From Bacteroidales bacterium (GTDB lineage: Bacteria > Bacteroidota > Bacteroidia > Bacteroidales > P3), in assembly GCA_024400665.1 (NCBI GenBank), contig JAKSML010000002.1, positions 27,803-91,802 on the forward strand: 64,000 nucleotides of DNA, read 5' to 3'. The notes below the pieces were generated by a model, which was given only the letters and a program-made list of their open reading frames with translations, ran no database searches and was not told the DNA's origin. The position numbers and the translations under genes are program-made. Numbering within the stretch: the stretch's first letter is position 1; every line of letters starts with the position of its first letter. Below, one piece after another: positions 36,975-55,396 of this stretch.

Positions 36975-37078
36975 AATTGTGAATTGTGAATTGTGAAATT
37001 GTGAAATTGTGAAATTGTGAATTGACAATACAAGCTGGCGGCAACCGCCCTAATTATCAATTATCAATTAAAAAACGC
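36960..37078. repeat. Family A repeat, long copy
   Basis: At least seven units of GTGAATTGTGAAATT, then TGACAATACAAGCTGGCGG, CAACCGCCC and TAATTATCAATTATCAATTA. It joins the lipoprotein stop to the flippase ATG and shows the full order of units: direct repeats, GC core, opposite arm. Confidence 0.8.
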
Positions 37079-37081
37079 ACC

Positions 37082-38587
37082 ATGTTGCAGAAGAAACTCC
37101 TCTCCGGCCTATTCTGGGTCCTGCTGCTCAACCTGCTCATCAAGCCTTTCTGGATCTTGGGCATCGAAGTGGGCATGCAGAACGCTGTCGGCCATGAGGA
37201 ATACGGCTTCTACTTCGCCATCTTCAACCTCGCCTACATCTTCAACATACTCCTCGACCTCGGCATCACCAACTACAACACCCGCAACATAGCCCGCCAC
37301 CCGCAGCTCCTCCACAAGCACTTCTCCTCTATCATCACTGTCAAGATACTCCTCCTCGGCCTCTACCTCGTTGCCACCTTCACCATCGGCCTCCTCAAAG
37401 GCTACCACTCACGCCAGTTCTCCATCCTCGCCTTCCTCTGTATCAACCAGTTCCTCAACTCCTTCATCCTCTACCTCCGCAGCAACTTCGAGGGGCTCCT
37501 GCTCTTCAAATGGGACAGCGTCATCAGCATCCTCGACCGCGTCATCATGATCCTCATCTGCGGCTGCCTGCTGTGGCTCCCCAACCATCCCGCCATCAAG
37601 ATAGAGTACTTTGTCTATGCACAAACAGCAGCCTACCTCATCACCACAGCCGTAGCCCTCGCCGTCCTCCTATCACGCATGAAGAAGCTGAAAGTGAACT
37701 GTGAAACTGTGAACTGTGAAGGAGTGAACTGTGAACTGACAAATCTAAATCTGCGTTTCTCCTGGCCCTTCACCTTCGCCATCATCAAGCAGAGCGCCCC
37801 CTACGCCCTGCTGGTGCTCCTCATGGCCTCCTACAACCGCATCGACCCCGTTCTGCTCGAAAGCCTCATACCCGACGGCACCCTCCAGGCAGGCATCTAT
37901 GCCGGCGCCTTCCGCCTCCTCGACGCCCTCACCATGATAGCCTACCTCGTTTCCGTGCCCCTCTTGCCCATCTACTCCAAACTCACACGCCCCCCCATCG
38001 ACACCCCGCACCTCGCCTCCGTCACCCGCCTCATGTTCTCACTCATCATCATCTTCGCCATCACCGCCGCCATCACCTTCAGCAGCATGAGCCACACCCT
38101 CATGAGCCTACTCTTCGAAGAGAACATCGACCAGCTCGAAAAAGTATTCCGCATCCTCATCTACAGCATCATACCCATCTCCGTCACCTATATCTTCGGC
38201 ACCCTCCTCACCGCCGACGGACGGCTCCGACGGCTCAACATCCTCGCCGCCTGCTCCCTCGCCCTCAACATCCTCATCAACCTCATCCTCATCCCCCGCC
38301 ACGGTGCCATAGGCTCCGCCTACGCCAGCCTCGCCGCCCAGAGTTTCATGGCCGTCACCCAGCTGGTCAGCGCCCTGCGCCAATTCGACATGAAGCCACA
38401 CTGCAGCTATACAATAAAGATAGCCCTATTCACGTTATTCATTATTGGCTGCAACATCCTGCTGCGACAGATGGGCATCTCCTGGCTGCCCTGGCTCCTC
38501 GCCATCCTCGCCGCCGCCCTCATCGCCGCCCTCCTGCTACGCCTCATCAACATCAAAGAAATAATGACAATAATAAAGGAACAATGA
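37082..38587 (+). CDS. Polysaccharide flippase (Wzx/PST-type) with repeat-derived loop
   Basis: A 501-residue membrane protein of the MOP superfamily with about 12-14 hydrophobic segments; it probably flips lipid-linked sugars to the periplasm. The N-terminus (KLLSGLFWVLLLNLLIKPFWILG) and GLLLFKWDS are as in oligosaccharide flippases. ATG 37082 is used; the frame upstream is only repeat DNA. Residues about 204-221 (37691-37744) read KVNCETVNCEGVNCELTN and are encoded by family A direct-repeat units. This lies in the central loop between the two six-helix halves, where an insertion would be least harmful. Whether the product is functional is inferred. Confidence 0.87.
   Translation: MLQKKLLSGLFWVLLLNLLIKPFWILGIEVGMQNAVGHEEYGFYFAIFNLAYIFNILLDLGITNYNTRNIARHPQLLHKHFSSIITVKILLLGLYLVATFTIGLLKGYHSRQFSILAFLCINQFLNSFILYLRSNFEGLLLFKWDSVISILDRVIMILICGCLLWLPNHPAIKIEYFVYAQTAAYLITTAVALAVLLSRMKKLKVNCETVNCEGVNCELTNLNLRFSWPFTFAIIKQSAPYALLVLLMASYNRIDPVLLESLIPDGTLQAGIYAGAFRLLDALTMIAYLVSVPLLPIYSKLTRPPIDTPHLASVTRLMFSLIIIFAITAAITFSSMSHTLMSLLFEENIDQLEKVFRILIYSIIPISVTYIFGTLLTADGRLRRLNILAACSLALNILINLILIPRHGAIGSAYASLAAQSFMAVTQLVSALRQFDMKPHCSYTIKIALFTLFIIGCNILLRQMGISWLPWLLAILAAALIAALLLRLINIKEIMTIIKEQ
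37691..37744. repeat. In-frame family A direct repeats in the flippase gene
   Basis: Five units of GTGAACTGTGAA and shortened forms, the same as intergenic units at 36960-37020 and 51923-51955. It adds about 18 codons without a frameshift. Confidence 0.8.
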
Positions 38588-38600
38588 ACCAATAAAAGCT

Positions 38601-38622
38601 GAGACGTAGCACGCTACGTCTC
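38601..38622. repeat. REP-like palindrome, family E
   Basis: Perfect 10-bp arms GAGACGTAGC and GCTACGTCTC with a 2-nt loop, just past the flippase stop. A relative lies at 43247-43276. Confidence 0.75.
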
Positions 38623-38659
38623 TACAGGCTGCCGCACGAAAGGACCACTGGCTCTTTCT

Positions 38660-38703
38660 TCCCGCCCTAATTCTCAATTATCAATTATCAATTCTCAATT
38701 AAA
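38660..38703. repeat. Family A repeat abutting the fabD start
   Basis: CCCGCCCTAATTCTCAATTA, then TCAATTATCAATTCTCAATT and AAAA before the ATG. Confidence 0.75.
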
Positions 38704-38704
38704 A

Positions 38705-39571
38705 ATGAAAACCGCATACATCTTTCCTGGACAAGGCTCCCAATTCGTAGGCATGGGCCAAGACCTCTACGACACCAACCCCCAATGTCGCGACCTTTTT
38801 GAGCGTGCCAACGAGATTCTCGGCTTCCGCATCACCGACCTCATGTTCCACGGCACTCCCGAAGACCTCAAGCAGACGCGCGTCACCCAGCCCGCCGTCT
38901 TCCTCCACAGCGTCATCCTCGCCGCCTCCCTCGGCAATGACTTCCAGCCCGACATGGTCGCCGGCCACTCGCTGGGCGAATTTTCCGCTCTTGTGGCCTC
39001 CAAAGCCATCAGCTTTGACGACGGCCTCCGCCTCGTCGCCGCACGTGCCAACGCCATGCAGCGCTGCTGCCAAGAGTGCCCCTCCACCATGGCCGCCATC
39101 CTCAAACTCGACGACAAGACCGTCGAAGAGGTATGCGCACAAGTCACCGCAGAGGGCCACACCGTCGTGCCAGCCAACTACAACACTCCCGGACAGCTCG
39201 TCATCAGCGGCACCAACGAAGGCGTTGCCCTCGCCTCCGAGAGGCTCAAAGGTCTCAAAGGCCGCGCGCTGCCACTTGCTGTAGGCGGAGCCTTCCACAG
39301 CCCGCTCATGGAGCCCGCACGCCTCGAATTGGCCGAAGCCATACAGGGCACGCCTCTCCACACCCCCATCTGTCCATGCTACCAGAACGTCTGCGCCCTC
39401 CCCGTCACCGACTCCGACACCATCCGCCAAAACCTCATCCTCCAACTCACCTCCCCCGTACGCTGGACCCAGACCGTGCTGCAGATGTCAGCCGACGGTG
39501 CCGCCGAATACATCGAACTCGGCCCTGGCACCACTCTCCAAGGCATGGTGAAACGCATCCTTGGAAACTGA
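38705..39571 (+). CDS. fabD: Malonyl-CoA:ACP transacylase FabD
   Basis: Loads malonyl groups onto acyl carrier protein for fatty acid synthesis. The 288-residue length is normal. The oxyanion region IFPGQGSQFVGMG is at the N-terminus. The active-site Ser is Ser89 in GHSLGEFSAL; the partner His is His198 in GGAFHSPLM. The Gln of PGQGSQ and Arg114 (ARANAMQ) are also present. A family A repeat supplies its AT-rich leader. No other fab genes are adjacent. Confidence 0.96.
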   Translation: MKTAYIFPGQGSQFVGMGQDLYDTNPQCRDLFERANEILGFRITDLMFHGTPEDLKQTRVTQPAVFLHSVILAASLGNDFQPDMVAGHSLGEFSALVASKAISFDDGLRLVAARANAMQRCCQECPSTMAAILKLDDKTVEEVCAQVTAEGHTVVPANYNTPGQLVISGTNEGVALASERLKGLKGRALPLAVGGAFHSPLMEPARLELAEAIQGTPLHTPICPCYQNVCALPVTDSDTIRQNLILQLTSPVRWTQTVLQMSADGAAEYIELGPGTTLQGMVKRILGN

Positions 39572-39600
39572 TAATAGTGAATGAATTAACAAGTGAAAAT

Positions 39601-41121
39601 ATGAATTTATTAATACACACAGCGGGTGCCCCTAAAAGACTTCGGCTCCGAGATGGAGCCAGGCTGTGTGGGCTTGTGCTGGGTGTGATGGTGGCTGCGG
39701 CGATGCTGCCCGCCTGCACCGGGGTGCAGCCTCCTGCGGCTTACGGGCCTTGTCCCACCGCTGCGCAGCTTGCCTGGCAGCGCATGGAGACGAATATGTT
39801 CTGCCATTTCGGGCCGAATACTTTCAGCGGTCTGGAATGGGGCGAGGGGACGGAGCCCGAAGATCTCTTCAACCCGACAGACCTCGACTGTGTGCAGTGG
39901 TGCGCAGTGGCGCAGGGGGCGGGGATGAAGGGGGTCATCATCACCGCCAAGCATCACGACGGCTTCTGCCTCTGGCCTAATCCTGTCAGCTCGCACACGG
40001 TGAGAGAGAGCAGCTGGCGGGACGGCAAGGGCGATGTGCTGCGCGACCTCTCGGACGCCTGCCGGCAGTATGGGTTGGGTTTCGGGGTGTATATCTCGCC
40101 GTGGGACCGCCATGCTCCCGACTATGGCACCCCGCACTATAATCTCACATTCCGTCAGACACTCGAAGATGCCCTCTCGCACTACGGGCCTGTCTTCGAG
40201 CAATGGTTCGACGGTGCTAACGGCGAGGGGCCGGAGGGGCGTCGCCAGCAGTATGACTGGACTCTTTTCAATACCACGGTTGCCGCCCTACAGCCCCATG
40301 CTGTCATCTTCAGTGACGTGGGACCCGGCTGTCGCTGGGTGGGCAACGAGCAGGGGCGTGGCGGCGTCACGTGCTGGTCGCGTCTCTCCACGCAGGGTTT
40401 TGCCCCAGGAGCAGAGGCGCCTGGTGCGGCGGTGCTCGGCAGCGGACAGAGCGACGGCCAGTGCTGGCTGCCAGCAGAGGCTGACGTGTCGCTCCACGAC
40501 GGCTGGTTCTATCATCCTCAGCAGCAGACTAAGAGTCTGCAAAGACTCCTTTCGATATATTATTCCAGCGTGGGACGCAATGCGCTCCTGCTGCTTAATG
40601 TGCCGCCCGACAGGCGCGGCCGTATCACAGAGGCTGACTCTGTGCGACTTATGGAGTTTCGCAGGGCGCTTGACACGATTTTTGCCTGCGATCTTGCGCA
40701 GGAGAGCCGAGTCACGGCATCTGGGCAGCTCGGCGGTGGTGGTTGCCGGCGGTATGCTGCGGACAATGTGCTCGACACTGCCTATCATACCTACTGGGCT
40801 GTGGCCGACACGCATCTGCAGCCTACGCTGACGCTGCATCTCCGCGAGGCTGTGGCTTTCAACCGCGTGATGTTGCAGGAGTATATACCGCTGGGGCAGC
40901 GAGTGGCGCACTTCGCTGTGCAGGTTACCGACACGAATGGTGCATGGCGGACTGTGGCTCAGGGCACTACGATAGGCTATAAGCGCATCTTGCTGCTGCC
41001 CGACATGCGTGCCGACGCGGTGCGTATCTGCTTTGACGGCTGCCTTGCCGCCCCTGTCATCAACCGCGTCGCGCTCTATTACGACGCTATCTATAGGCCT
41101 GAGGAGGGGGAGAGGCAATGA
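39601..41121 (+). CDS. Alpha-L-fucosidase, glycoside hydrolase family 29, lipoprotein
   Basis: A 506-residue exported enzyme that removes alpha-L-fucose from glycans. The signal peptide ends in a lipobox-like MLPAC (Cys39). The catalytic domain contains HFGPNTFSGLEWGEG, ITAKHHDGFCLWP and YISPWDRH. The predicted nucleophile is Asp204 in EQWFDGANGEG, the GH29 site. A C-terminal region (from about residue 375) resembles an F5/8C-type carbohydrate-binding module. Codon use has more G- and T-ending codons than neighbouring fabD, and continues into the next gene, which suggests this pair was acquired together. It fits host mucin or plant-glycan foraging. Confidence 0.9.
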   Translation: MNLLIHTAGAPKRLRLRDGARLCGLVLGVMVAAAMLPACTGVQPPAAYGPCPTAAQLAWQRMETNMFCHFGPNTFSGLEWGEGTEPEDLFNPTDLDCVQWCAVAQGAGMKGVIITAKHHDGFCLWPNPVSSHTVRESSWRDGKGDVLRDLSDACRQYGLGFGVYISPWDRHAPDYGTPHYNLTFRQTLEDALSHYGPVFEQWFDGANGEGPEGRRQQYDWTLFNTTVAALQPHAVIFSDVGPGCRWVGNEQGRGGVTCWSRLSTQGFAPGAEAPGAAVLGSGQSDGQCWLPAEADVSLHDGWFYHPQQQTKSLQRLLSIYYSSVGRNALLLLNVPPDRRGRITEADSVRLMEFRRALDTIFACDLAQESRVTASGQLGGGGCRRYAADNVLDTAYHTYWAVADTHLQPTLTLHLREAVAFNRVMLQEYIPLGQRVAHFAVQVTDTNGAWRTVAQGTTIGYKRILLLPDMRADAVRICFDGCLAAPVINRVALYYDAIYRPEEGERQ

Positions 41122-42083
41122 GCGGAAGGGGCGGGCTTTTTGAGCATGGCAGAGGGGGCTTGCGGCCAGCTGGGAGCTGGAGCCAATTAGGGGCGGGAGT
41201 CGTTTTGGGGCATCTTGCCAGTTTCTCGGCATATGCCATCTTCGGCCTCAACATTATTCTCTGCAAGGATATTGCGAGCGAGGGCAGTCTCTCGCCGCTG
41301 CTGTTGTTCACGTTGCGGGCTTTCTGTGCTGGAGTGCTTTTCTGGCTGCTCTCGCTCTTCACCCCGCGTGAGGCTGTTCCCGCTGCCGACCTCTTGCGTA
41401 TGGCGGGTGCGGGTATGCTGGGCTTGGTCATCCCCCAGCTCACATTCCTCACGGCTATCACTATGACGGCGCCTATCGACCTCTCTGTGGTTCAGAGCAC
41501 CACCCCTATCATGACTATGTTTGTCGCAGCCATCTTCCTCAAGGAGCCCATCAGCTGGCAGAAGGCTGGCGGCGTGGCGCTGAGCTTTGCTGGTGTGCTG
41601 TGGCTTATTCTCCAATCGACCCATTCCGCTGGTAGCGTCGTGACGCGCCCGCTCGGCATCGTCCTCACCATTCTCAACACTGTCAGCTTCGCCCTCTATC
41701 TTGGCGTCTGCCGTCCTGTCATTCAGCGATACAGCGTTGTCACTCTGATGAAATGGATGTTTCTCTTCGCCTTCGTCATCTCGCTGCCGTTCTCGGTGGG
41801 CGACCTCAAGACTCTGGATGTCCGTGCTGTCCCAGTTTCTGTATGGTGGGAGGTGGCGTATCTTATCTTCTTTGCCACTTTTATAGCTTATTTTCTCATT
41901 CCCGTAGGACAGCAGCGCATCCGCCCCACGTTGGTGAGCATGTACGGCTATCTCCAGCCGATAATAGCCACAGTGGTAGGCGTGGCGGTGGGTATGGACC
42001 GCCTCACGGTGATGAAGGTGCTGGCTGCGGTGTGTGTGTTTGCCGGCGTGGCTGTTGTGAATCGCAGTCCGAAGAGAGAGTAG
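41118..42083 (+). CDS. EamA/DMT-family transporter, second copy
   Basis: A 321-residue, ten-helix EamA transporter. The first EamA repeat begins FSAYAIFGLNIILCKD and the second ends YGYLQPIIATVVGVAVGMDRLT, as expected of the family. It overlaps the fucosidase gene by 4 bp (ATGA), so an import or export role linked to fucoside use is possible, though unproven. Residues about 16-30 (PAGSWSQLGAGVV) are encoded by a fragment that resembles the repeat core at 47208-47252, so the N-terminal extension may be repeat-derived. The true start could be further inside, but no ATG occurs before the first helix. Confidence 0.84.
   Translation: MSGRGGLFEHGRGGLRPAGSWSQLGAGVVLGHLASFSAYAIFGLNIILCKDIASEGSLSPLLLFTLRAFCAGVLFWLLSLFTPREAVPAADLLRMAGAGMLGLVIPQLTFLTAITMTAPIDLSVVQSTTPIMTMFVAAIFLKEPISWQKAGGVALSFAGVLWLILQSTHSAGSVVTRPLGIVLTILNTVSFALYLGVCRPVIQRYSVVTLMKWMFLFAFVISLPFSVGDLKTLDVRAVPVSVWWEVAYLIFFATFIAYFLIPVGQQRIRPTLVSMYGYLQPIIATVVGVAVGMDRLTVMKVLAAVCVFAGVAVVNRSPKRE
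41165..41205. repeat. Repeat-core fragment in the 5' end of a gene
   Basis: CCAGCTGGGAGCTGGAGCCA and ATTAGGGGCGGGAGTCG; the second matches the family A core AATTAGGGCGGGAGCCG. Related DNA occurs in the gene at 46467-47384. Confidence 0.6.
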
Positions 42084-42134
42084 TTCCTTGGTTAGGAGGG
42101 GCGCTGGACCGAATGATAAAATTAATGAAGAAAG

Positions 42135-42200
42135 AATGAAGAAAGTCCTGTGGACTTTCGATAGCGAAGCGGAGAATAAGAGTGAGCTGCCGCACGACGG
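42135..42200. repeat. Family D unit and GC-rich core
   Basis: GAAAGTCCTGTGGACTTTC, then GATAGCGAAGCGGAGAAT, then GCTGCCGCACGACGGC. The last 16-mer occurs also, in part, at 20385, 38628 and (reversed) 51110. Confidence 0.6.
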
Positions 42201-42252
42201 CTTCCGCCATACTCTTTATTCTTCATTTTATATTTATTGAGAAGGTGAGGTG

Positions 42253-43002
42253 TCACCAGATGAAGCCGTCGAAGGGGTGGTTGCGGTCGAAGTCCTGCTG
42301 CTGAGAGAGTATCTGGAGGCGTTTGATGCGCCGGCAGCCCCATTTCCACATTTTGACGTCGAACCATATCAACACGATGAAGAGGAGGGCGCTGGCAATC
42401 TCGCCGCCGTAGGGCATGCTGTCGGGTATCATGAGCAGGGCGTCGAAAGTGCCGTGCATCAGCATGGGGATGAAGAAGGCGAGGAACAGGTAGCGGGTGC
42501 GGCGCTGGGGGTTGAATTTGGCGAGGGCTGTGTAGTAGCCCATCATGATGCCGAAGAGGAAGTGTGCGGGTACGGAGAGTAGGGCGCGGACGATGCTGGT
42601 GGTGAGGGCATTTTCGAAGAGGGGCTGGCTGAAGATGTAGCTGATGTTTTCGCAGCAGGCGAAGCCTAGGGCGACAAAGCAGCTATAGACGATACCGTCG
42701 AAGTATTCGTCGAACTGCGGGCTTTTCCAGATGGCGAGGACGAGGAGGAGGAGTTTGCAGAGTTCTTCGCTGCAGCCTGCCACGATGTAGGCGGTGTAGG
42801 CGCCACTCACTATGGGCATTGGCGGGGTGTAGAGGGTGAGGAGGTTTTCCAGCACGATTACGGGCAGCACGGAGAGCATTCCGAAGAGGAATGCTTTGAG
42901 CAGTTGGCCGAGGGGTTCGCGCTGGTATTTGTCTTGCCGATAGACGATGATGCCGAGCACGATTACGGGCAGGATGGCGAGTGCGAGGAGGAGTGTGTTC
43001 AT
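42253..43002 (-). CDS. PrsW-family intramembrane metalloprotease
   Basis: A 249-residue membrane protein with about seven or eight hydrophobic segments. PrsW motifs are complete: the Glu pair in GCSEELCK, FDGIVYSCFVALGFACCENI, and the His residues of VPAHFLFG and MHGTFD. In Firmicutes PrsW cleaves an anti-sigma factor; in Bacteroidetes the substrate is not known. The gene stands alone, between repeat copies. The short tail after the last helix is basic (KMWKWGCRRIKRLQ), hence cytoplasmic. Confidence 0.9.
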   Translation of the reverse strand: MNTLLLALAILPVIVLGIIVYRQDKYQREPLGQLLKAFLFGMLSVLPVIVLENLLTLYTPPMPIVSGAYTAYIVAGCSEELCKLLLLVLAIWKSPQFDEYFDGIVYSCFVALGFACCENISYIFSQPLFENALTTSIVRALLSVPAHFLFGIMMGYYTALAKFNPQRRTRYLFLAFFIPMLMHGTFDALLMIPDSMPYGGEIASALLFIVLIWFDVKMWKWGCRRIKRLQILSQQQDFDRNHPFDGFIW

Positions 43003-43104
43003 GGTCTGTGAGGTGTGAATTATGAGCTGCGAACTGTGAGCTGTGGTCTGAGGGCAGTAGTCGCCCCAGCTCTCAATTTTTTAACATTTGGATTTAACAT
43101 TTGG

Positions 43105-43160
43105 TCCAAACTCACACCAAACCCAGACCAAACTCAGACCAAACTCAGACCAAACCCACT
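43105..43160. repeat. 11-bp tandem repeat
   Basis: About five units of CAAACTCAGAC (variants CAAACTCACAC and CAAACCCAGAC), between the PrsW gene and the lipoprotein gene. Followed by AGATGTTAAAAATTGGGG. Confidence 0.8.
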
Positions 43161-43246
43161 CATTTTTTGGAGATGTTAAAAATTGGGGCGAGAGGAGTAA
43201 GTTTTTTTTTAACAATTAGGGTGAATAATGAGTTAGACTGTATTGT

Positions 43247-43276
43247 GGGTAGAGAGGTAGCGCTACATCTCTACCC
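43247..43276. terminator. Palindrome, REP-like or terminator, family E
   Basis: Arms GGGTAGAGAGGTAGC (43247-43261) and GCTACATCTCTACCC (43262-43276), one mismatch. It lies 12 bp past the stop of the lipoprotein gene at 43289. Confidence 0.65.
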
Positions 43277-43288
43277 ATTATTTTGTAT

Positions 43289-44881: not shown

Positions 44882-44929
44882 TGTTTGGATGTTTAAAGGG
44901 TTGATGTGGGGATTAATTGGGTTAATTGG

Positions 44930-45058
44930 ACGGATTGGGTTGATTGGGAGGTTGGCGCCAGCTTGTATTGGAGTTTCGGAGTTTTGAAGTTTCGGAGTTT
45001 TGAAGGGTTGGAGATTGCAGGCTACCTGCTAATCTTCAAATCTTCCCATCTATAGGTC
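44930..45058. repeat. Family B repeat in the third cassette
   Basis: Units GTTTCGGAGTTTTGAA, then GGGTTGGAGATTGCAGGCTACC and GCTAATCTTCAAATCTTCCC. It separates the small gene from the lipoprotein gene. A preceding ATTGGGTTAATTGG array is at about 44905-44955. Confidence 0.7.
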
Positions 45059-45084
45059 TATATTCCTGTTTGTCTGACTAATGG

Positions 45085-45306
45085 TTATTCTGTGAAATGA
45101 TTGTCGCCGTAGGTTGCTGCATCTCCGAGTGTTTCAAAGTCGCCGTAGCGTGTTGGCGCGAAGGCATCTTGGTCGTAGGTGCGGTGGTCGAAGAGGGTTT
45201 CTGACACAACGACGCTGTCTATGTATCCGTCTTCGACACGGAATTGGACGGCTTTGACGTTGGGCGGCGCGTAGGCTGTGCGTCGCGAGGGTGTGTGTTT
45301 GTGCAT
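45085..45306 (-). CDS. Small cassette protein, copy 3
   Basis: A 73-residue protein, MHKHTPSRRTAYAPPNVKAVQF at its start. The block PPNVKAVQFRVEDGY aligns with EPRVKSVKFQVEQGF and EPRVKSVKFQVESGF of copies 1 and 2. The rest is acidic and aromatic and unlike the others. It is the first gene before lipoprotein copy 3. The start at 45306 is used because upstream codons on this strand lie in repeat DNA. Its nucleotide sequence is not close to copies 1 and 2, so the shared block reflects protein-level constraint. Confidence 0.68.
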   Translation of the reverse strand: MHKHTPSRRTAYAPPNVKAVQFRVEDGYIDSVVVSETLFDHRTYDQDAFAPTRYGDFETLGDAATYGDNHFTE

Positions 45307-45307
45307 G

Positions 45308-45395
45308 GTGCTTTTTAATTGATAATTGAAAATTGATAATTGATAATTGGGGCGGATTGGGCTAATTGGTCTGATTGGGCTAATTGGGCGGGGGT
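45308..45395. repeat. Family A repeat
   Basis: TTTTTAATTGATAATTGAAA, TTGATAATTGATAATTGGGG and CGGATTGGGCTAATTGG units, between the small gene and the barrel gene. Confidence 0.7.
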
Positions 45396-46330
45396 TACCA
45401 GTCTTGGATGTGTCGGGAGGAGGTGAGGGGGAGGCGGTAGGAAAGGTTGACGGCGAGGATGAGGGTTTTGAGGGGGGTGTAGGCGACGTGCTGGGTGGTG
45501 GTGTTCTGGATGGGCTGGCCGTAGATGCTGTAGGCGGTGGTGGTGGTGCGGTCCCAGATGAGGGGTGCGTTGCCGAGGTGGTTGAGGGTGGCGCCGAGGG
45601 TGAGGCGCTCTTTGGCGATGATGCCGACGCCGAAGCGGAGGCCGAGGGTGTTGGCGGGGGCGTAGCGGCGGATATCGGTGTTGGCGTATTGGGCAAAGGT
45701 CTGGCCGTCGGACTGGGTGTAGCTGTTGTCGGCAAAGGTGAGGGACCAGTCGGTGATGCGGCGGAGGTTGATGCCGGCGAGGGCTTCGGCGTAGAGCTTG
45801 ATGCCGGAGGTGAGGGGATAGTCGAAACGGATGCCGGCGAGGATGGGGATGTGGCGTATGCGGGGGAGCTGCATCTCGTAGAGGGAGCAGCGGTCGTAGC
45901 GGTGGGGGTAGGAGAACTCATAGTAGTCGCTGATGTCGCGGCTGAGGCCGCTCTGCATGAAGTCGGCGGAGAGGAGGAGCTCGATGGCAGAGGAGGAGCC
46001 TGCGTTGGAGATGGGGAGGGGTATGGCGTAGGCTATGTCGAGGCCTGCGTTCCAGCCGCGTCCCGCACCGCCTTTGTGCTGATGGCCTTCGGTGAACATC
46101 CATTCGTTGTCGCTCATGCGGGATTCGGCGTAGGTGCCTTTGGGGAGGGTGACGCCGCCACGGAGGCCGAGGTAGAGTTGTGCGGAGGCTGTTTGTGACA
46201 GGATGAGGAGCAGCAGCAGCAGAGAGGCACGAAGAGGGGCACGAGGGTTAAGGCGCACGGATGTTGCGGGATGCGTGTCAGTGCTGTGCTGCACTATGGA
46301 GAGCGTCTTTCTATATGAATATCTGAACAT
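45395..46330 (-). CDS. Outer-membrane beta-barrel protein (PorT-like fold)
   Basis: A 311-residue protein. The signal peptide is preceded by about 30 polar residues; LRASLLLLLLILSQTASAQ is the hydrophobic core, so the start may lie inside the first 35 residues, though no better ATG is seen. The mature part begins LYLGLRGGVTLPKG and has the alternating strands and final aromatic residue of outer-membrane barrels (LILAVNLSYRLPL). It is typical of the OmpA-like/PorT barrel superfamily in Bacteroidetes. Close to the third lipoprotein cassette, so a role in surface assembly is possible but not shown. Confidence 0.75.
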   Translation of the reverse strand: MFRYSYRKTLSIVQHSTDTHPATSVRLNPRAPLRASLLLLLLILSQTASAQLYLGLRGGVTLPKGTYAESRMSDNEWMFTEGHQHKGGAGRGWNAGLDIAYAIPLPISNAGSSSAIELLLSADFMQSGLSRDISDYYEFSYPHRYDRCSLYEMQLPRIRHIPILAGIRFDYPLTSGIKLYAEALAGINLRRITDWSLTFADNSYTQSDGQTFAQYANTDIRRYAPANTLGLRFGVGIIAKERLTLGATLNHLGNAPLIWDRTTTTAYSIYGQPIQNTTTQHVAYTPLKTLILAVNLSYRLPLTSSRHIQDW

Positions 46331-46465
46331 TGGGAGATTTGAAGATTCGGTGATTCGGTGATTTGAAGATTCGGAGGATTGGAGATTTGGAGATTTGGAG
46401 ATTTGAAGGGTTGGAGATTGCAGGCTACCTGCTAATCTTCAAATCTTCCCATCTACAAATCTATA
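46330..46465. repeat. Family B repeat array
   Basis: Many units of GATTTGAAGATTCGGTGATTC and GGAGATTTGGAGATTTG, then GGAGATTGCAGGCTACCTGC and TAATCTTCAAATCTTCCCATC. The palindromic core GCAGGCTACCTGC is clear here. Confidence 0.8.
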
Positions 46466-46466
46466 T

Positions 46467-47384
46467 TCATTTTTTCTGCATGACAGATATGAGGCGGGCA
46501 GCATCGTCCGTGGCCATATACCTCACACCAAAGCTCATCAGCTTGGCCCAATCGCCTTCGTTTCTCACAGGCTGCACGGCTGTGAGGAAGTTCTTGTCGC
46601 CCTCCACTACGGCCCAGTCCGGATGCTGGTAGTAGGCCTTCATGTCGCAATACAGACCGCTCATCCCTGCCTGCAGCAGCTTGTCCGGCTCCATGTCCGA
46701 CCCCTGATAGAGGATGCGGACATGGGACAGACGCTTGCGCAGCAGTTCGCACTGCGTGAAATCGGGACTGGCGATGATGACATGTTTCTGAGCGTCCATA
46801 TCACCCAAACTCAGCAGCAGGTCGGCAAGCTGGTCGGCGAGGCGGATGCCGTATTCGCCATTGCCCCCTGGATGAATCTCAAGAAGGATGCTCGTGCTCG
46901 AATATTCCTGACGCGAAAGGCGCTGAAGGCCCTTGATGAGATACTCCTTCAAGAGCGGCACTGCCGCCTCGCGGAATGCAGGATGATCGGCAAGCAGCTG
47001 ATAAGGGCTGTCGGGGATATAGAGCCCTTCCATCACGTCCGAAGCGTATAGGATGAGCTTGTCGTCCGAAGTGAGACGGACGTCGGCATGAACGGCGAAG
47101 GGATGGCGTTCCAAAGCCCGAAACATGGTGCGGATGGCGTTAGGCTGCGTATCGGTGGCAGAGAGGCGTCCCTGATAGGCTATGATGCGCTGGAGGCAGG
47201 CGCTGTCTCCAGCTTGGAGCTGGAGCCCATTAAGGGCGGCAGCCGCAGTCTTAGGCGTTGCCTTGGGAGTGCTTCGGTGCTTGGCATTGGTCTGAGCCGA
47301 GGCCGTATTAGCGAATAGGAGGAGAAGGACAGTCATCAAGCTGACAACTGAGCATTTGATGGTTGTGAATGTTCTATTTTTCAT
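46467..47384 (-). CDS. Degenerate GDPD-like secreted protein
   Basis: A 305-residue exported protein (signal peptide up to TASAQ). The fold pattern is that of glycerophosphodiester phosphodiesterases, a TIM barrel: IIAYQGRLSATDTQPNAI takes the place of HRG..PENT, VHADVRLTSDDKLILYASDVMEGLY takes the place of E-x-DV-x-T-x-DG-x-x-V-x-HD, and ILLEIHPGG that of the EIK strand. The His of HRG, the first Glu and the His of HD are all changed, so the usual active site is missing. I read it as a pseudoenzyme or an enzyme with another activity. Residues about 47-60 are encoded by a repeat-core fragment. Confidence 0.6.
   Translation of the reverse strand: MKNRTFTTIKCSVVSLMTVLLLLFANTASAQTNAKHRSTPKATPKTAAAALNGLQLQAGDSACLQRIIAYQGRLSATDTQPNAIRTMFRALERHPFAVHADVRLTSDDKLILYASDVMEGLYIPDSPYQLLADHPAFREAAVPLLKEYLIKGLQRLSRQEYSSTSILLEIHPGGNGEYGIRLADQLADLLLSLGDMDAQKHVIIASPDFTQCELLRKRLSHVRILYQGSDMEPDKLLQAGMSGLYCDMKAYYQHPDWAVVEGDKNFLTAVQPVRNEGDWAKLMSFGVRYMATDDAARLISVMQKK
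47208..47252. repeat. Repeat-core fragment inside the GDPD-like gene
   Basis: CAGCTTGGAGCTGGAGCCCA and ATTAAGGGCGGCAGCCG, in frame, related to 41165-41205. Confidence 0.6.
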
Positions 47385-47392
47385 GGTTAAGA

Positions 47393-47512
47393 GGATTCAA
47401 AGAGTTGAAGATTTGAAGATTCGGAGATTGGGAGATTTGAAGGGTTGGAGATTGCGGGCTACCTGCTAATCTTCAAAGTCTTCCTGTCTGTAGGTTTGTA
47501 TTCGTTGTTGGT
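47393..47512. repeat. Family B repeat
   Basis: GAAGATTTGAAGATTCGGAGA, GGGTTGGAGATTGCGGGCTACC, GCTAATCTTCAAAGTCTTCC. Lies between recQ and the GDPD-like gene. Confidence 0.75.
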
Positions 47513-47521
47513 TTCGTTAGG

Positions 47522-49876
<2,355 letters not shown>

Positions 49877-49893
49877 AATTCAAAAAAAATATG

Positions 49894-49901
49894 TAATTTT
49901 G
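49894..49901 (+). promoter_or_regulatory. Likely minus-7 box upstream of kdsD
   Basis: TAATTTTG, 150 nt before the kdsD start, in the divergent gap with recQ. A family A repeat lies between it and the gene. Confidence 0.4.
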
Positions 49902-49916
49902 CACTCGAAAAATAGT

Positions 49917-50005
49917 AATAAATTGAGAATTGAGAATGAGAATTGGAAATTGGCTGACACGGTTTTTGTATTGTCAGTTCGCAATTCATAGTTCTCAGTT
50001 CGCAA
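49917..50005. repeat. Family A repeat in the kdsD leader
   Basis: AAATTGAGAATTGAGAATGAG, GAAATTGGCTGACACGG, TTGTATTGTCAGTTCGCAA, with arm-like ends. Confidence 0.7.
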
Positions 50006-50051
50006 AGACAAAGTTAGCAATAATTCTTTAAATAACAAAAAAAAAGTTACT

Positions 50052-51035
50052 TTGAAGACAGACATAGACATCCAAAAGATTGCAATACAAGTTATTGCAG
50101 ATGAAAAAAAAGCTGTTGAAGGCTTGGAAAAACGAGTAAATTCGGCGTTTTCTGAGGCTGTAAAAACCATTTTTGGCACCTCTGGACGCGTAGTTGTTAC
50201 CGGTATTGGCAAGAGTGCGAACATTGCCTCCAAAATCGTCTCCACCCTCAACAGCACGGGCACTCCTGCCCTCTTCATGCACGCCGCCGACGCCATCCAC
50301 GGCGACCTCGGCATGATACGCCCCGACGACGTTGTTATCTGCATCTCAAAAAGCGGAAACACGCCGGAGATCAAAGTGCTCATTCCGCTGGTGAAGAACT
50401 TCGGCAACAAGCTCATCGCCATCGTGGGCAACACCGACTCCTTCCTTGCCCACGAAGCCGACATCGTGCTCGACACCACCGTTGACCATGAGGCATGCCC
50501 CAACAACCTCGCCCCTACCAGCAGCACCACAGCGCAGCTCGTCATGGGCGACGCCCTCGCCGTGGCCCTCATCGAATGCCGCAACTTCACCGCGCGCGAC
50601 TTTGCCCGCTTCCACCCCGGCGGCGCCCTCGGCAAACAGCTCTACATGCGCGTGAGCGACCTCTACAAGCAGAACGAACGCCCCGCCGTGGTTCCCAGCA
50701 CCCCCATCCGCGACACCATCCTTGAGATGACGACCAAACGTCTCGGCTGCGCCGTGGTGGTGCCCGACACTGCGGCTCCTGACGCACCCGTCCTCGGCAT
50801 CATCACCGATGGCGACCTCCGCCGCATGATCAAGACCAACCTCTCGTTCGACGGACTCACGGCTGCCGACATCATGACCCATAGCCCCAAGAGCATCCTT
50901 GAGAGCGAATATGCCGTGAACGCGCTGCACATCATGCGCACCCACAGCATCACGCAGCTCATCGTCGTCGATCAACAGGGAGCCTACCTCGGCGTGCTCC
51001 ACCTCCACGACATCCTGCGCGAAGGAATAATATAG
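50052..51035 (+). CDS. kdsD: Arabinose-5-phosphate isomerase (KdsD/KpsF/GutQ)
   Basis: Converts D-ribulose 5-phosphate to D-arabinose 5-phosphate for Kdo, needed for LPS. A 327-residue protein with a SIS domain (about residues 42-175: VTGIGKSANIASKIVSTLNSTG, CISKSGNTPEIKVLIP) and two CBS domains (about 205-325), the full KpsF layout. The start is TTG 50052, the first possible initiator that keeps the N-terminal helix; there is no ATG near it. lptB follows at 51175, so Kdo synthesis and LPS export are neighbours. Assignment to KdsD rather than another sugar isomerase rests on the domain layout and neighbours. Confidence 0.9.
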   Translation: MKTDIDIQKIAIQVIADEKKAVEGLEKRVNSAFSEAVKTIFGTSGRVVVTGIGKSANIASKIVSTLNSTGTPALFMHAADAIHGDLGMIRPDDVVICISKSGNTPEIKVLIPLVKNFGNKLIAIVGNTDSFLAHEADIVLDTTVDHEACPNNLAPTSSTTAQLVMGDALAVALIECRNFTARDFARFHPGGALGKQLYMRVSDLYKQNERPAVVPSTPIRDTILEMTTKRLGCAVVVPDTAAPDAPVLGIITDGDLRRMIKTNLSFDGLTAADIMTHSPKSILESEYAVNALHIMRTHSITQLIVVDQQGAYLGVLHLHDILREGII

Positions 51036-51036
51036 T

Positions 51037-51170
51037 TTAAAACTGAATGAATAAATTATTCATTATCAATAATGGAATGAAGAATAAAGGAATAAAGAGT
51101 GAGGGCGGGGGTCGTCGTGCGGCAGCCCACTTTTTATTTTTTATTCATTAATTCTTAATTAAAAAACAAG
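51037..51170. repeat. Family A repeat between kdsD and lptB
   Basis: AATGAATAAATTATTCATTATC, GGGCGGGGGTCGTCGTGCGG, GCAGCCCACTTTTTATTTT and a closing TTAATTCTTAATTAAAAAA before the lptB leader. Confidence 0.65.
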
Positions 51171-51174
51171 AATC

Positions 51175-51936
51175 ATGCAACTAAGAACAGAAAACGTAGT
51201 AAAGATATACCGCAGCCGCACGGTCGTCAACGAAGTCAGCGTTGATGTGAAGCAGGGCGAAATCGTCGGACTCCTCGGCCCTAACGGTGCCGGAAAGACC
51301 ACCACATTCTACATGATTGTGGGCATCATCAAGCCCTACTCCGGCCGCGTCTTCCTCGACGACACCGAGATCACCAAGCTCCCCATGTACCGCCGCGCAC
51401 AGCTCGGCGTCGGCTACCTCGCCCAAGAAGCCTCCGTCTTCCGCCAGATGACGGTGGAGGACAACATCCTCTCCATTCTCCAATTCCGCAAAGACCTCGA
51501 TGCCGCACAGCGCAAAGAGAAGCTGGAGTCGCTCATCCGCGAGTTCGGTCTCCAAAAGATACGCACCAGCAAAGGCATACAGCTCTCCGGCGGCGAACGT
51601 CGTCGCACCGAGATTGCCCGAGCCCTCGCCAACGACCCCAAATTCCTCCTCCTCGACGAGCCTTTCGCCGGCGTTGACCCCATCGCCGTGCAAGACATCC
51701 AGGACATCGTGGCGCACCTCAAAGACCGCAACATCGGCATTCTCATCACCGACCACAACGTCCACGAAACCCTCAGCATCACCGACCGCGCCTACCTCCT
51801 CTACGAAGGCCGCGTCCTCCACCACGGCACCCCCGAAGAAATGGCCGCAGACCCCGACGTGCGTGAGAAATACCTCGGCCGCGACTTCGTCCTCCGCCGC
51901 GCCACAACCAAGAAACTGAATAATAGTGAACTGTGA
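51175..51936 (+). CDS. lptB: LPS export ABC transporter ATP-binding protein LptB
   Basis: The cytoplasmic ATPase of the Lpt machine that extracts LPS from the inner membrane. A 253-residue ABC protein: Walker [11 protein letters not shown] (Gly35 to Thr44, Lys41), Q-loop [17 protein letters not shown] (typical of LptB), signature [15 protein letters not shown] and Walker [14 protein letters not shown]-loop ITDHNVHE. The partners LptF/LptG are not in the window. The C-terminal tail KKLNNSEL runs directly into a family A repeat, so the last residues may derive from it. Confidence 0.95.
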
Positions 51937-52083
51937 ATTGTGAATTGTGAACTGACAATACAAAGACCGCGCCAGCCTAATTCTCAATTATCAATTCTCA
52001 ATTAAAAAGATGTGAACTGTGAACTGACAACACAAACGCCGGCAACCGCCCTAATTCTCAATTTTCAATTCTCAATTAAAAAA
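51923..52083. repeat. Two tandem family A repeats
   Basis: The order units (GTGAATTGTGAATT), GACAATACAAAGACC, CGCCAGCCTAATTCTCAATT, TATCAATTCTCAATTAAAAA is followed by a second full copy with GACAACACAAACGCCGG and CAACCGCCCTAATTCTC. It ends 2 bp before the rsmE ATG. Confidence 0.8.
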
Positions 52084-52085
52084 AC

Positions 52086-52805
52086 ATGCACCTTTTTCTA
52101 ACTGACGATACCACTGGCGAATATGCCACCCTCCCCGCCGAAGAGTCGAAGCACTGCACCCGCGTGCTACGCATGGGCATAGGCGACGAGATGCTGCTCA
52201 CCTCGGGTGACGGCGTGATGTGCCGCGCACGCGTCTGCACCCCCGACGACAAAGCCTGCCAAGTCGAAATCATCAAAAGGATAGAGGACTACTGCCGCCG
52301 ACCCTTCCACCTGCACCTCGCCGTGGCCCCCACCAAGAACACCGCACGACTCGAGTGGTTCGTCGAGAAAGCGGTAGAAATCGGCATAGACCGCATCACC
52401 CCCGTCATCTGCGACCACAGCGAACGCTCCATCCAAAAGACCGAACGTCTCGAAAAAATAGCCCTCAGCGCCATGAAGCAGTCGCTCAAAGCCTCAAAGC
52501 CCCTCATCGACGACCCCGTGAAACTCATCGACTTCCTCAACGAGCCCTTCAACGGCCAGCGCTTTGTCTGCTACTGCTCGGGCAATGAGCGCCACACCCT
52601 CCACCAGCTCTACACCCCTGGCAGCGACGCCCTCGTGCTCATCGGCCCCGAAGGCGACTTCAGCAACCGCGAGATCTCCGCCGCCCTCGCAGGCGGCTTC
52701 CTCCCCGTCACCCTCGGCAGCTGCCGCCTCCGCACCGAGACCGCAGCTCTCTACGCAACCACAGCCCTCAACTTTATGAACGAAGAATGTAGATTTGAAG
52801 ATTAG
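52086..52805 (+). CDS. rsmE: 16S rRNA (uracil-1498-N3)-methyltransferase
   Basis: RsmE methylates N3 of U1498 in 16S rRNA with SAM. A 239-residue SPOUT/trefoil-knot enzyme with the N-terminal PUA-like domain (HLFLTDDTTGEYATLPAEESKHCTRVLRM) and the knot motifs IGPEGDFSNREI and LGSCRLRTETAAL. The first Met starts the HLFL block at a typical position. The last residues (NEECRFED) are encoded at the edge of a family B repeat, so the C-terminus may have been altered by it. Confidence 0.95.
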   Translation: MHLFLTDDTTGEYATLPAEESKHCTRVLRMGIGDEMLLTSGDGVMCRARVCTPDDKACQVEIIKRIEDYCRRPFHLHLAVAPTKNTARLEWFVEKAVEIGIDRITPVICDHSERSIQKTERLEKIALSAMKQSLKASKPLIDDPVKLIDFLNEPFNGQRFVCYCSGNERHTLHQLYTPGSDALVLIGPEGDFSNREISAALAGGFLPVTLGSCRLRTETAALYATTALNFMNEECRFED

Positions 52806-52862
52806 CAGGTGACCTGCAATCTCCAAATCTCCGAATCTTCAAATCTTCTAATCTTCCAATCC
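52796..52862. repeat. Family B repeat between rsmE and DUF4159
   Basis: GATTTGAAGATTAGCAGGTG, ACCTGCAATCTCCAAATC, then ATCTTCAAATCTTCTAATC. The palindrome centre GCAGGTGACCTGC is intact. Confidence 0.8.
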
Positions 52863-53516
52863 ATGAAATACAAAGCATCAATACTTATACTCCTGTTACT
52901 TGTCACAGTCATGGGACATGCCCAGACCCCAATAGCCCTCCTCAAATACAGCGGCGGCGGCGACTGGTATGCCAACCCCACCTCCCTCACCAACCTCATA
53001 GCCTTCTGCAACGCCGATGCCAGAATGAACCTCGCTGCCGACTACGCCGTCGTCGATGTGGGCAGCAGCGAAATATTCAGCTACCCCTTCATCCACATGA
53101 CCGGCCACGGCAACGTCGTCTTCTCCTCACAAGAAGCACAAAACCTGCGCAACTACCTCATCGCCGGCGGCTTCCTCCACATCGACGACAACTACGGCAT
53201 CAAAGAGTTCGTCATCCCAGCCATGAAAAAGGTCTTCCCCGAATTGGACTTCGTCGAACTACCCTTCTCCCACCCCATCTACCACCAACGCTACGCCTTC
53301 CCCAACGGCCTGCCCAAAATCCACGAGCACGACAACCTCCCGCCCCGTGGCTACGGCCTCATCTACGAAGGACGCCTCGTCTGCTTCTTCTCATGGGAGT
53401 GCGACCTCGGTGACGGTTGGGAAGACCCCGACGTCCACAACGACAGCCAAGCCACTCGCACCAAAGCCTTCCAGATGGGCGAAAACATACTCCAATACGT
53501 CTTCACCACCAACTGA
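52863..53516 (+). CDS. DUF4159 secreted protein
   Basis: A 217-residue exported protein (signal peptide SILILLLLVTVMGHAQ). It has the DUF4159 patterns YSGGGDWYANPTSLTNLI, FSYPFIHMTGHGNVVFS and LIAGGFLHIDDNYGIKEF. The fold is predicted to resemble the glutamine amidotransferase-like/ThuA-type barrels, and its role is unknown; in Bacteroidetes it commonly stands near cell-envelope genes. ATG 52863 is used; upstream frame is repeat DNA. Confidence 0.86.
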   Translation: MKYKASILILLLLVTVMGHAQTPIALLKYSGGGDWYANPTSLTNLIAFCNADARMNLAADYAVVDVGSSEIFSYPFIHMTGHGNVVFSSQEAQNLRNYLIAGGFLHIDDNYGIKEFVIPAMKKVFPELDFVELPFSHPIYHQRYAFPNGLPKIHEHDNLPPRGYGLIYEGRLVCFFSWECDLGDGWEDPDVHNDSQATRTKAFQMGENILQYVFTTN

Positions 53517-53986
53517 CCAGAAGAAGAACCGCCCATCCACCCGCCAATTCCCGCCCCTAATCGGTCATCGCCGTTCAGCACAGCGCACAAAGTGTAATGC
53601 CGCTTCGCCACCCCTAAAACGGCGTAAAAACGGCAGCACACAAACGGTCGATTTTAACATTTCAAAGAGCGGTTCCTGGTCCCTCAAATCGGCCCTCATC
53701 AAACCCCATTTTCACCCTCAGAGAAGCTCCGCCATAGCTCCGCCTTAACTCCGCCTTAGCTCCGCTCGCAGGAGCGAAGAGAAGGGGACACTAAAAAGGG
53801 TATGAAGAAGGCTCTCGGCGAAGCCTAAAAAGAGGAAAATCGCAGCATCCGCACGATGCCTTTTTTAACATTTCCAAAACTCGTTCTCATCGGCTGAATT
53901 TGTCACTCGATTTTTCACGAGTGGCAGCCTTAGCTCTTGACTGAAACGGATGCTTTTCTGTCATTAGTCTGTCCGCTGCTCACCTT
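53517..53986. other. Gap between convergent genes with repeats
   Basis: No gene seen. Holds a GATTTTAACATTTC motif, family C units AGCTCCGCCAT and CTCCGCCTT (53722-53772), and a second TTTTTTAACATTTCC near 53862. Similar TTAACATTT motifs occur at 43079 and 33001. Confidence 0.5.
53722..53772. repeat. Family C tandem repeat
   Basis: AAGCTCCGCCATAGCTCCGC, CTTAACTCCGCCTTAGCTCC, then GCTCGCAGGAGCG. Confidence 0.75.
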
Positions 53987-55396
53987 TCAATAGCACTGGC
54001 GGCAGAGGAGGCCTATGGGGTGCGAGGCATGGGTGGCGGCGATGACGAAGAGAGTGCCGCCTTCGTGCAGCTTGAGCTTCTTCTGCAGCTCAGCAGCCGA
54101 CAGTGGGAAATTTCGCGTGGCCACATGCGCTTTCTTTTCGGGTATCGCTTTCGCCACATCCTTGGCATTGAGGCTCAGCGGCTGCAGCACCTCGAAGCAA
54201 CGACCAGGGAACGCCTCTTGATATGCCGACGAAGTGTAGAGGTGGGTATTTCGTGCCAGCTTCTCCACGCCGAACCACGCACAGATGCTGTTGTAGCAAC
54301 CGCCTTTCATCACGGCCGCGTTAGGTTCATAGAGGTATCTCCCCACGCTGGCTGCAAATTGCGGGAGGGCCGCCGCCTCTTCTTCGCGAGTGAAGCTGAT
54401 GGGCTTGAAGCCTTTTTGCAAATCCACGATTTGAAGATGAGGAGATTTGAAGATGGGGAGATTTGAAGGTGGCTCGGGATTGCCACATTCCTTTGCCGCA
54501 TTCGAGAGCAGGAATAGCACCTCTTTGCACTCCCCGCCTACAGCCACGACATGCACCTCGTCAACCGCCCCGAGCTGCTGTACCGCCATGTCAATGTCTA
54601 TCATCGGCGAGGCCTTGACCATCAGCGTGCGACAGCTCCGCAACAAGGCATCTCTATGTGCTAATAGATTCGGCGTGCAGTCCTCAAAGGCAGCCACCTT
54701 GCGGCCTTGGATGTCGCGACGTGCGGGGTCGATCAAGATGAAATCGTAATGTCTGTCCCCGCCTTGGGCAATTGCGGCCATGCTGTCGCCATGATGCACG
54801 GAGATGTTACCTGTCGGTGGCACTGCTCGGCTTCGGTCTCGAAAGCATTCATTCAGACGCTCAGCTGTCGCAATGCTGGCCTGTCCTAAGGCTGAGAAAT
54901 TGTGACGTGCCAGAGCGCAGAGGCCTTCGTCTATCTCGAAGTAGTCTCCCGCCTGGGCCTTGAGCGAAAGAAAGAAGGTGTCGATGCCCATGCCGCCTGT
55001 GAGGTCGGCAAACGTTCCGCCTCCCAGGCGCTCGAAAATCTCGCTCTTGTACTTGGCCGTAAGCTCGGAAGAGCTCTGCTCACGGTTAATCTTGGGCGGA
55101 TAGAGATAGGTGGCACAAGAGGCAAGCGTCGGCCACTTAGCCGACGCTTGGCGTAGGCCTTCGAGCTGCTGTGCCACCAGCCGAAGGTCTATATCGGGAT
55201 ATTTGGACTGCTGCAGCAACAGCCGCAGCGGGTCCTCGTCCCTATGTTCGTCTGCGAAGTGCAGAACCTTTTCAATCGAACAATCGAATGCATCGAAACA
55301 GGACTCCGAAGATGCCATCGAAACCTCAGAAGAGACTTTTTTTTCAGTGTATCCCTGTTGTCCCATTTCGTGCTTATTGTTACATATTAGTGACAT
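53987..55396 (-). CDS. SAM-dependent methyltransferase with THUMP-like domain, repeat insertion
   Basis: A 469-residue protein. The middle has a Rossmann methyltransferase core: FADLTGGMGIDTFFLS (motif I, about residues 129-144), YFEIDEGLC, and the catalytic-like FILIDPARRD (DPARR in place of NPPY, about 219-228). The C-terminal third has YLYEPNAAVMKGG, and matches the THUMP-like domain that accompanies this group. The substrate, probably RNA, is unknown. Residues about 309-324 (54425-54472) read PPSNLPIFKSPHLQIV and come from family B repeat DNA. A possible shorter start is ATG 55366 (MGQQGY). The insertion is in a linker between the two domains. Confidence 0.8.
   Translation of the reverse strand: MSLICNNKHEMGQQGYTEKKVSSEVSMASSESCFDAFDCSIEKVLHFADEHRDEDPLRLLLQQSKYPDIDLRLVAQQLEGLRQASAKWPTLASCATYLYPPKINREQSSSELTAKYKSEIFERLGGGTFADLTGGMGIDTFFLSLKAQAGDYFEIDEGLCALARHNFSALGQASIATAERLNECFRDRSRAVPPTGNISVHHGDSMAAIAQGGDRHYDFILIDPARRDIQGRKVAAFEDCTPNLLAHRDALLRSCRTLMVKASPMIDIDMAVQQLGAVDEVHVVAVGGECKEVLFLLSNAAKECGNPEPPSNLPIFKSPHLQIVDLQKGFKPISFTREEEAAALPQFAASVGRYLYEPNAAVMKGGCYNSICAWFGVEKLARNTHLYTSSAYQEAFPGRCFEVLQPLSLNAKDVAKAIPEKKAHVATRNFPLSAAELQKKLKLHEGGTLFVIAATHASHPIGLLCRQCY
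54425..54472. repeat. In-frame family B repeat in the methyltransferase gene
   Basis: ATTTGAAGATGAGGAGATTTG and AAGATGGGGAGATTTGAAGG, units like those at 46330-46400. Confidence 0.78.

Follow-up and report, generated by a model that had tools for sequence, protein, structure and literature searches.

An uncultured gut Bacteroidales bacterium, of which we analysed a 64,000-nt stretch of DNA (the window) together with further parts of the genome, carries the same repeat DNA both between its genes and inside housekeeping genes whose orthologues are without it. We consider it likely that dispersed elements, each a hairpin with tandem arms, insert widely in this lineage, and that selection retains those copies that are in frame, free of stop codons and placed in loops; as judged from sequence, the repeat DNA carried by housekeeping genes is probably translated into floppy extra loops of the encoded proteins. 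The genome is a 1.54-Mb metagenome assembly, 65% complete and in 46 contigs, and the survey sample consisted of the window and 36 other stretches, 442 kb altogether (29% of the genome), with 324 genes predicted by a simple gene caller. Internal inserts were found in 13 genes, including those for the helicase RecQ, a flippase and a methyltransferase; since the stretches had been picked for their repeat content, 13 of 324 does not translate into a genome-wide rate. Comparisons within the genus drew on 58 relatives (59 genomes with this one), which form part of a larger group.

Repeat DNA inside conserved genes

Tandem repeats of 7, 8 and 11 bp fill the intergenic DNA, and seven-bp units predominate among them. 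Family A is built from 8-bp units such as GATTTGGA and GATTTGAA, followed by a centre GCAGGNNNCCTGC and then by the reverse-complement octamers. Family B begins with a run of the 7-bp unit GTGAAYT (for example GTGAACT), continues with the GC-rich hairpin core CTGACAATACAAACNNCGGCAACCGCCC and ends with a second 7-bp run (for example ATTATCA or CAGATCA) that approximates the reverse complement of the first arm. Genome-wide pattern matches with at most 3 mismatches, in which neighbouring units are tallied separately, numbered 106 for A, 113 for B and 176 for the 11-mer, as opposed to 3, 0 and 1 for the respective reversed-letter controls.

The RecQ insert, which consists of octamer-type elements, occupies residues 168-218 (49223..49375, minus strand, in the gene at 47522-49876, minus strand). 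A match was found in 56 of the 58 genus relatives, and all 56 break at residue 165-169 and resume at 219-221, so that the orthologue comparison that the initial annotation had set beforehand came out in its favour: orthologues without the repeats are also without the peptides. Among the best 80 of 587 loci the match spans 2166-2226 nt versus 2352 here, which is 42-62 codons shorter, and the 43 of these 80 that were aligned have 8-18 residues where the span here is 59. Fifty-three nt of the insert are 91% identical to the intergenic stretch L112. An AlphaFold2 structure prediction, drawing on 43 of the 80 relatives, assigns a predicted local distance difference test score (pLDDT) below 50 to residues 171-219, flanked by a helix and a strand, with values of 25-45 in the block; the insert is thus predicted to be disordered. 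As a separate observation, the octamer-type insert peptide or a variant of it is shared, in the same frame, by four genes (in L093, L106 and L113, and recQ of the window), and its intergenic relatives occur in L102, L106 and L112.

The flippase insert (residues 203-222, VNCETVNCEGVNCELT; 37688..37747, plus strand, in the gene at 37082-38587, plus strand) corresponds to the left arm of element B and adds about 20 residues that are encoded by three 15-nt units. Its DNA is identical at 39 of 39 nt both to a copy in the sulfatase gene of L093 and to an intergenic copy in L112. In relatives the insertion site is a variable loop, and relative L036 bears a repeat-like insert of its own in that same loop. 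The gene at 53987-55396 (minus strand), which we take, following the initial annotation, to encode a methyltransferase, carries at residues 309-324 (PSNLPIFKSPHLQ; 54425..54472, minus strand) DNA of octamer family A, with 41-nt matches at 88-95% to intergenic A octamer arrays; 28 relatives have 9-15 residues versus a span of 24 here. Both the flippase and the methyltransferase case must be qualified in that length at these sites varies among relatives too. A second methyltransferase gain of 23 residues (174-196; 54809..54877, minus strand) is missing from 28 of 28 aligned relatives and lies at a site without length variation (percentile 0); it was considered as repeat-derived and ruled out, having no match elsewhere in the 442 kb.

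The claim of the initial annotation that these three segments match nearby intergenic repeat families therefore stands, the repeats being tandem ones of 7 and 8 bp, and the phenomenon reaches further than it proposed. The ten additional genes encode CinA, a sulfatase-family protein with three inserts, a MacB-domain permease (its gene being truncated by the end of the stretch), FolC, UvrD/PcrA, a GH106 protein with several inserts, NAD kinase, LigA and two unnamed L113 proteins, of which the one covered by the Pfam scan had no Pfam family in it. Of 37 in-gene arrays listed, 25 fall within the 13 genes, and 12 were dropped as lying at gene ends or in the N-terminal region or as coding repeats of no family. 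Reading frames are open across the inserts, the expected Pfam domains were found in the enzymes scanned, and typical translations, VNSEIVNSELT...NSQFTIHNS and VNCEKVNSELTIQTGGNRP...QVTGHRSQIT, represent both arms and the core read through.

Orthologues were compared for eight of the 13 genes (RecQ, flippase, methyltransferase, NAD kinase, LigA, UvrD/PcrA, FolC and CinA). In NAD kinase the match breaks at 119-131|181-191 in all 53 relatives that have one, and in LigA it breaks at 488-495|525-543 in 55 of 56 (one of them with its halves on two contigs), the 56th being fragmentary; in the length classes listed, relatives have 7-37 residues in LigA versus a span of 58 here. Against solved chains, the unaligned residues amount to 44 versus 4 in UvrD/PcrA, 70 versus 30 in FolC and, for the second-best chain, 38 versus 8 in CinA.

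Reading frame and orientation

Arrays of period 7 or 8 occur 22 times in the 324 predicted genes and not once in 20 codon shuffles. The recQ-region loci of relatives yielded 17 in 663 genes versus 0 in 10 shuffles, and periods of 10, 11, 13 and 17 gave 0 arrays each in genes. The presence of such arrays inside genes of relatives, which come from other assemblies, together with the open frames and expected domains, speaks against an artefact of decaying genes or of metagenome misassembly; the incomplete and fragmented state of the assembly could be taken in favour of this explanation, which we nevertheless regard as extremely improbable.

A strict GTGAACT array of at least three units encounters a stop in every frame of that strand, and one base added between units two and three keeps the VNxELT frame open. 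An 8-bp spacing of the third unit characterises 7 of 7 sense arms inside genes versus 5 of 37 intergenic arms (p = 2e-5). This test used 44 of 68 arms; 22 (21 intergenic, 1 gene-borne) were dropped because their third unit could not be resolved, as were one gene-end arm and one antisense gene-borne arm, both spaced by 7 bp. Eight of nine internal gene-borne arms are in the sense orientation, and all eight sense B arms are in the single open frame. Of 58 intergenic arms, 2 have at least 20 open codons on either side. Where both neighbours were called, the B copies between genes split into 9 forward and 10 reverse. Three of the six B-core matches scored inside genes looked like chance occurrences in ordinary coding sequence. 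The copies inside genes are thus in frame and open, and sense B copies have frame-compatible spacing.

The units themselves are not unusually poor in stops, as the initial annotation had supposed: 2.73 of 6 frames are open in arrays versus 2.44 after letter shuffling (all arrays taken in, gene-borne ones included). Instead, it is the gene-borne sense copies that form a frame-compatible subset. There is also some chance, albeit a rather small one, that these copies represent a coding-adapted sublineage with a 7+8 bp spacing and a fixed frame that copies itself from gene to gene; if so, mobile DNA would have evolved transparency to translation.

The shared frame also bears on the idea that inserts forming hairpins are bypassed in, or taken out of, the RNA, leaving a protein without the segment. 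Across nine sequences folded as RNA, z spanned -6.9 (UvrD insert) to -0.8 (the B element between genes at 36960). The UvrD insert and those of the sulfatase (z -4.1) and CinA (z -2.6) are predicted to form coding-strand hairpins, as this idea would have it. Removal from the RNA would, however, need no open in-frame insert, yet the eight sense B arms share the one open frame, and the RecQ and GH106 hairpins are weak. We therefore hold it to be very improbable.

Frame-broken counterparts were looked for among 73 pairs of codirectional genes separated by an array-bearing gap. In a Pfam scan of a sample of 16 of these pairs, taken from the 20 with the shortest members, no split gene was seen: 9 had a family on both sides, always different families, and 7 were uninformative. 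We also considered that B might avoid divergent or convergent gaps and rejected this; 19 of 19 copies for which both neighbours were called lie between codirectional genes, but 181 of 232 gaps are codirectional anyway.

Insertion sites

The five repeat-insert sites examined (RecQ, NAD kinase, LigA, flippase and methyltransferase 309-324) rank among the most length-variable positions of their proteins, their percentiles for this measure being 94 to 100. In-frame entry at loops in the manner of Rickettsia, as the initial annotation had envisaged, is supported by these results. Its further suggestion, that the elements act as a source of peptide loops, is not supported in the sense of a benefit, tolerance at indel-prone sites being sufficient. 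A reading in which the inserts are useful would have them serve as new loops that alter the interactions or stability of proteins, and it could draw on the recurrence of DNA-repair and housekeeping enzymes as targets and on the expected Pfam domains of the scanned enzymes. The targets are, however, without a common function, the RecQ insert is low in predicted order and the sites tolerate indels, for which reasons usefulness appears to us very improbable.

Distribution and turnover

A search allowing at most 3 mismatches located the B core at 10 places here, but in none of the 58 genus relatives. The array (CAATTCT)3, with one mismatch allowed, was found in 23 of 295 Bacteroidales genomes, this one among them; matches to its reversed-letter control turned up in several genomes too (15 places here, 174 in G202), which indicates that heptamer arrays built from other units are frequent and that the count is not specific to the unit. 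Outside the genus, no clear internal in-gene array was seen among the 20 loci listed (one of which is the CinA locus of this genome); two of these were without an array by pattern, and at four others the reading frames over an array were judged by eye to be end or antisense overlaps. The closest species pairs displayed intergenic gains and no repeat gain within a gene (for L168/L169, about 8.2 of 14.2 kb aligned).

A gene that we presume to encode thiamine pyrophosphokinase carries a heptamer array in frame at one loop in six of eight species, with a different unit in each: CAATTCA, AATTTTC, CACTTCT, AATTCTC, ACATTCA and GTGGAAA. The carriers are L145 (11520-12182), L149, L153, L154, L169 and L142, L148 has arrays at other loops, and the comparison comprised nine sequences, from which the fragment L181 was dropped. 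This pattern suggests homogenisation within species and concerted change inside a gene.

Such arrays, in which six species each have their own unit at one loop, are also what would be expected if the segments were simple-sequence expansions grown in place from native codons by slippage, and so are the predominance of seven-bp units and the varying lengths of the flippase and LigA loops among relatives. Slippage alone should leave sites without common non-tandem sequence. In contrast, the non-tandem core and 39-42 nt identical stretches are common to unlinked sites (42 of 42 nt for NAD kinase, with UvrD sharing 40 nt at 97.5%), the NAD kinase, UvrD and GH106 inserts comprise both arms plus the core, and the 51-residue gain in RecQ is confined to one genome in the comparison with the 56 genus relatives and the best 80 of 587 loci. 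Growth in place thus strikes us as unlikely, in any case less so than a benefit to the protein.

Further repeats in the window

Outside genes, an element B at 36960..37070 (plus strand), identified by direct reading and core scan, precedes the flippase start and comprises a AATTGTGA/GTGAATT arm, the core TTGACAATACAAGCTGGCGGCAACCGCC and an ATTATCA arm, and a family B right-arm array (ATTATCA/ATTCTCA) lies at 38660..38701 (plus strand). The element A at 46329..46462 has GATTTGGA/GATTTGAA octamers, the centre GCAGGCTACCTGC and reverse-complement octamers, and the region 46376-46470 folds as RNA with z = -4.2. Further A elements, likewise without an assigned strand, are found at 44955..45071, at 47384..47508 (in the gap between recQ and the next gene) and at 52782..52861, and an A array followed by a B right arm at 56435..56545. 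Direct reading revealed two B elements in tandem in the lptB-rsmE gap (51914..52077, plus strand).

The C-termini of lptB and rsmE had been named as likely further cases, and indeed both genes terminate within arrays that provide their stop codons: the first array of the lptB-rsmE gap holds that of lptB, and the first octamers of 52782..52861 hold that of rsmE. Proteins in L097, L114, L117 and L124 end in LIDN, LIEN or RIEN, their genes apparently entering a stop-supplying tandem array. Three other candidates had been named as well. The copies at 41165..41205 (no strand assigned) and 47208..47252 (minus strand, in the gene at 46467-47384) share 31 nt at 90% identity (47209-47239 in the latter) and resemble further places in the genome, the former matching L092 over 40 nt at 90%, but they lie near N-termini; the first is in a reading frame that we take to encode an EamA-like transporter, whose start the gene caller puts at 41334. 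The candidate at 33455-33515 does contain octamer DNA, an A array at 33447..33497 (plus strand) at the 5' end of the reading frame 33415-34293, but this array lies upstream of the start chosen by the gene caller and is probably ahead of the true one.

The 11-bp unit family AGCTCCGCCTT occupies 3205-3297, 32867-32960, 53721-53778 and 60018-60097 and has 176 pattern matches in the genome; the in-gene arrays listed do not include it. Of two species with 90% DNA identity (L127 8683 versus L129), one carries a 34-bp unit that bears a palindrome, GAAAGTCCAGTGGACTTTCGATAGCGAAGCGGAG, and similar-looking sequence lies at 33198-33281 of the window. Finally, within 60535-61192 and 63346-64000, two segments of 300 and 228 nt recur at a distance of about 2.8 kb and with 89-91% identity, resembling a tandem gene duplication.

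Discussion

Insertion of whole elements, combined with selection for frame, open strand and loop position, accounts for the observed facts. The elements would multiply in this lineage and insert at many places, purifying selection would purge copies that break genes, and the survivors would be copies divisible by three in length, free of stops in their strand and frame and located in a surface loop. Such inserts would then be translated as mostly disordered, nearly neutral loops. The tandem arms would meanwhile keep changing and be homogenised within species, probably by slippage or gene conversion.

Several points weigh against insertion followed by selection. Neither a strain-level pair of filled and empty sites nor a target-site duplication was found, and no mobilising enzyme was found either, Y1 transposase numbering 0 in this genome, which is 65% complete, versus 40 of 59 genus genomes with it. 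In-frame copies are detected partly because they are in frame, and frame-broken genes were looked for in a sample (16 of 73 element-bearing gaps). The ninth internal gene-borne arm is antisense with 7-bp spacing. Periods of 12, 15 and 21 bp, all multiples of three, are also in excess (15, 23 and 16 versus 3.5, 8.5 and 5.5 shuffled), as would be expected of natural protein repeats, which lie outside what codon shuffles model. Poor alignment beside long inserts may inflate the measure of site variability, and the orthologue comparison covers eight of the 13 genes. RNA folding gave weak hairpins for RecQ (z -1.4), GH106 (z -1.0) and the B element between genes at 36960 (z -0.8). For RecQ the structure model is of no more than fair quality (mean pLDDT 70, predicted template modelling score 0.52) and has six more segments below 50. 

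If insertion followed by selection is correct, unit spacing constitutes a direct, countable signature of selection on the reading frame, and comparing many species can put to the test the old question of whether inserts of this kind are carried along neutrally or supply material for new protein segments.

Comparison with known systems

A literature search, with most subscription papers outside its coverage, turned up no account of in-frame insertion in Bacteroidales, in keeping with what the initial annotation had stated. Elsewhere, in-frame palindromic elements are described or cited from Rickettsia, Wolbachia, Methanocaldococcus and Opitutus, and 7-bp intergenic repeats from cyanobacteria, Beggiatoaceae and five Bacteroidetes (PMC2229807, PMC4224334, PMC3733652, PMC2996958, PMC2670836, PMC4679880 and PMC6649704 together). 

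The short tandemly repeated repetitive (STRR) sequences of filamentous cyanobacteria are intergenic 7-bp arrays able to form hairpins (PMC2670836). They resemble family B and other arrays of this genome in their tandem 7-bp intergenic units, family A having 8-bp units instead; their host belongs to another phylum, and the portion of that source available to us does not mention insertion in genes. The TAACTGA heptamers of Beggiatoaceae, Cyanobacteria and five Bacteroidetes, of which one strand is translatable and the other bears stops (PMC4679880), are likewise intergenic 7-bp arrays. According to the same source they lie mostly upstream of start codons, and the nearest case to ours, a two-unit set near the end of purC in F. 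litoralis (Bacteroidetes), is the sole in-gene case in its Bacteroidetes section.

Closer in position are the intragenic repetitive extragenic palindromic (REP) sequences of Opitutus terrae, tagged GTAG/CGTC, which place palindromes in uvrA, uvrB and other genes, many of them encoding 20-30 residues (PMC3733652). They share with the present, putatively palindromic elements a position inside known genes, DNA-repair genes included. Reading the present elements by eye revealed no GTAG/CGTC tag, no formal scan having been made, and no Y1 transposase, the type of the REP-associated tyrosine transposases that move REP sequences, was found in this incomplete genome. The Correia/NEMIS elements of Neisseria occur in genes in an open-frame 107-bp form and almost only between genes in a stop-bearing 155-bp form (PMC2229807). 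This pattern parallels the frame-compatible arms described here; Correia/NEMIS is an inverted-repeat element, and the part of the source at hand does not mention tandem arms.

The most apt comparison is with the Rickettsia and Wolbachia palindromic elements (RPE and WPE); an insert in gmk of Rickettsia is reportedly translated, with the protein being active. RPE are present in 19 reading frames (PMC2229807), and WPE-like inserts lie in frame in addA, addB and priA, with one stop-bearing exception (PMC4224334). Like them, the elements described here are dispersed, putatively palindromic repeats that occur both between genes and in frame within conserved genes whose orthologues are without them. 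Unlike them, they have arms built as tandem arrays of 7- or 8-bp units that vary in length, more than one unit family is present side by side, and the B core is found in 1 of 59 genus genomes, in a gut Bacteroidales host. Taken together, these results make it likely that protein-coding mobile palindromes, known from Rickettsia, from Wolbachia and from a few other groups, also occur in a genus of gut Bacteroidales.

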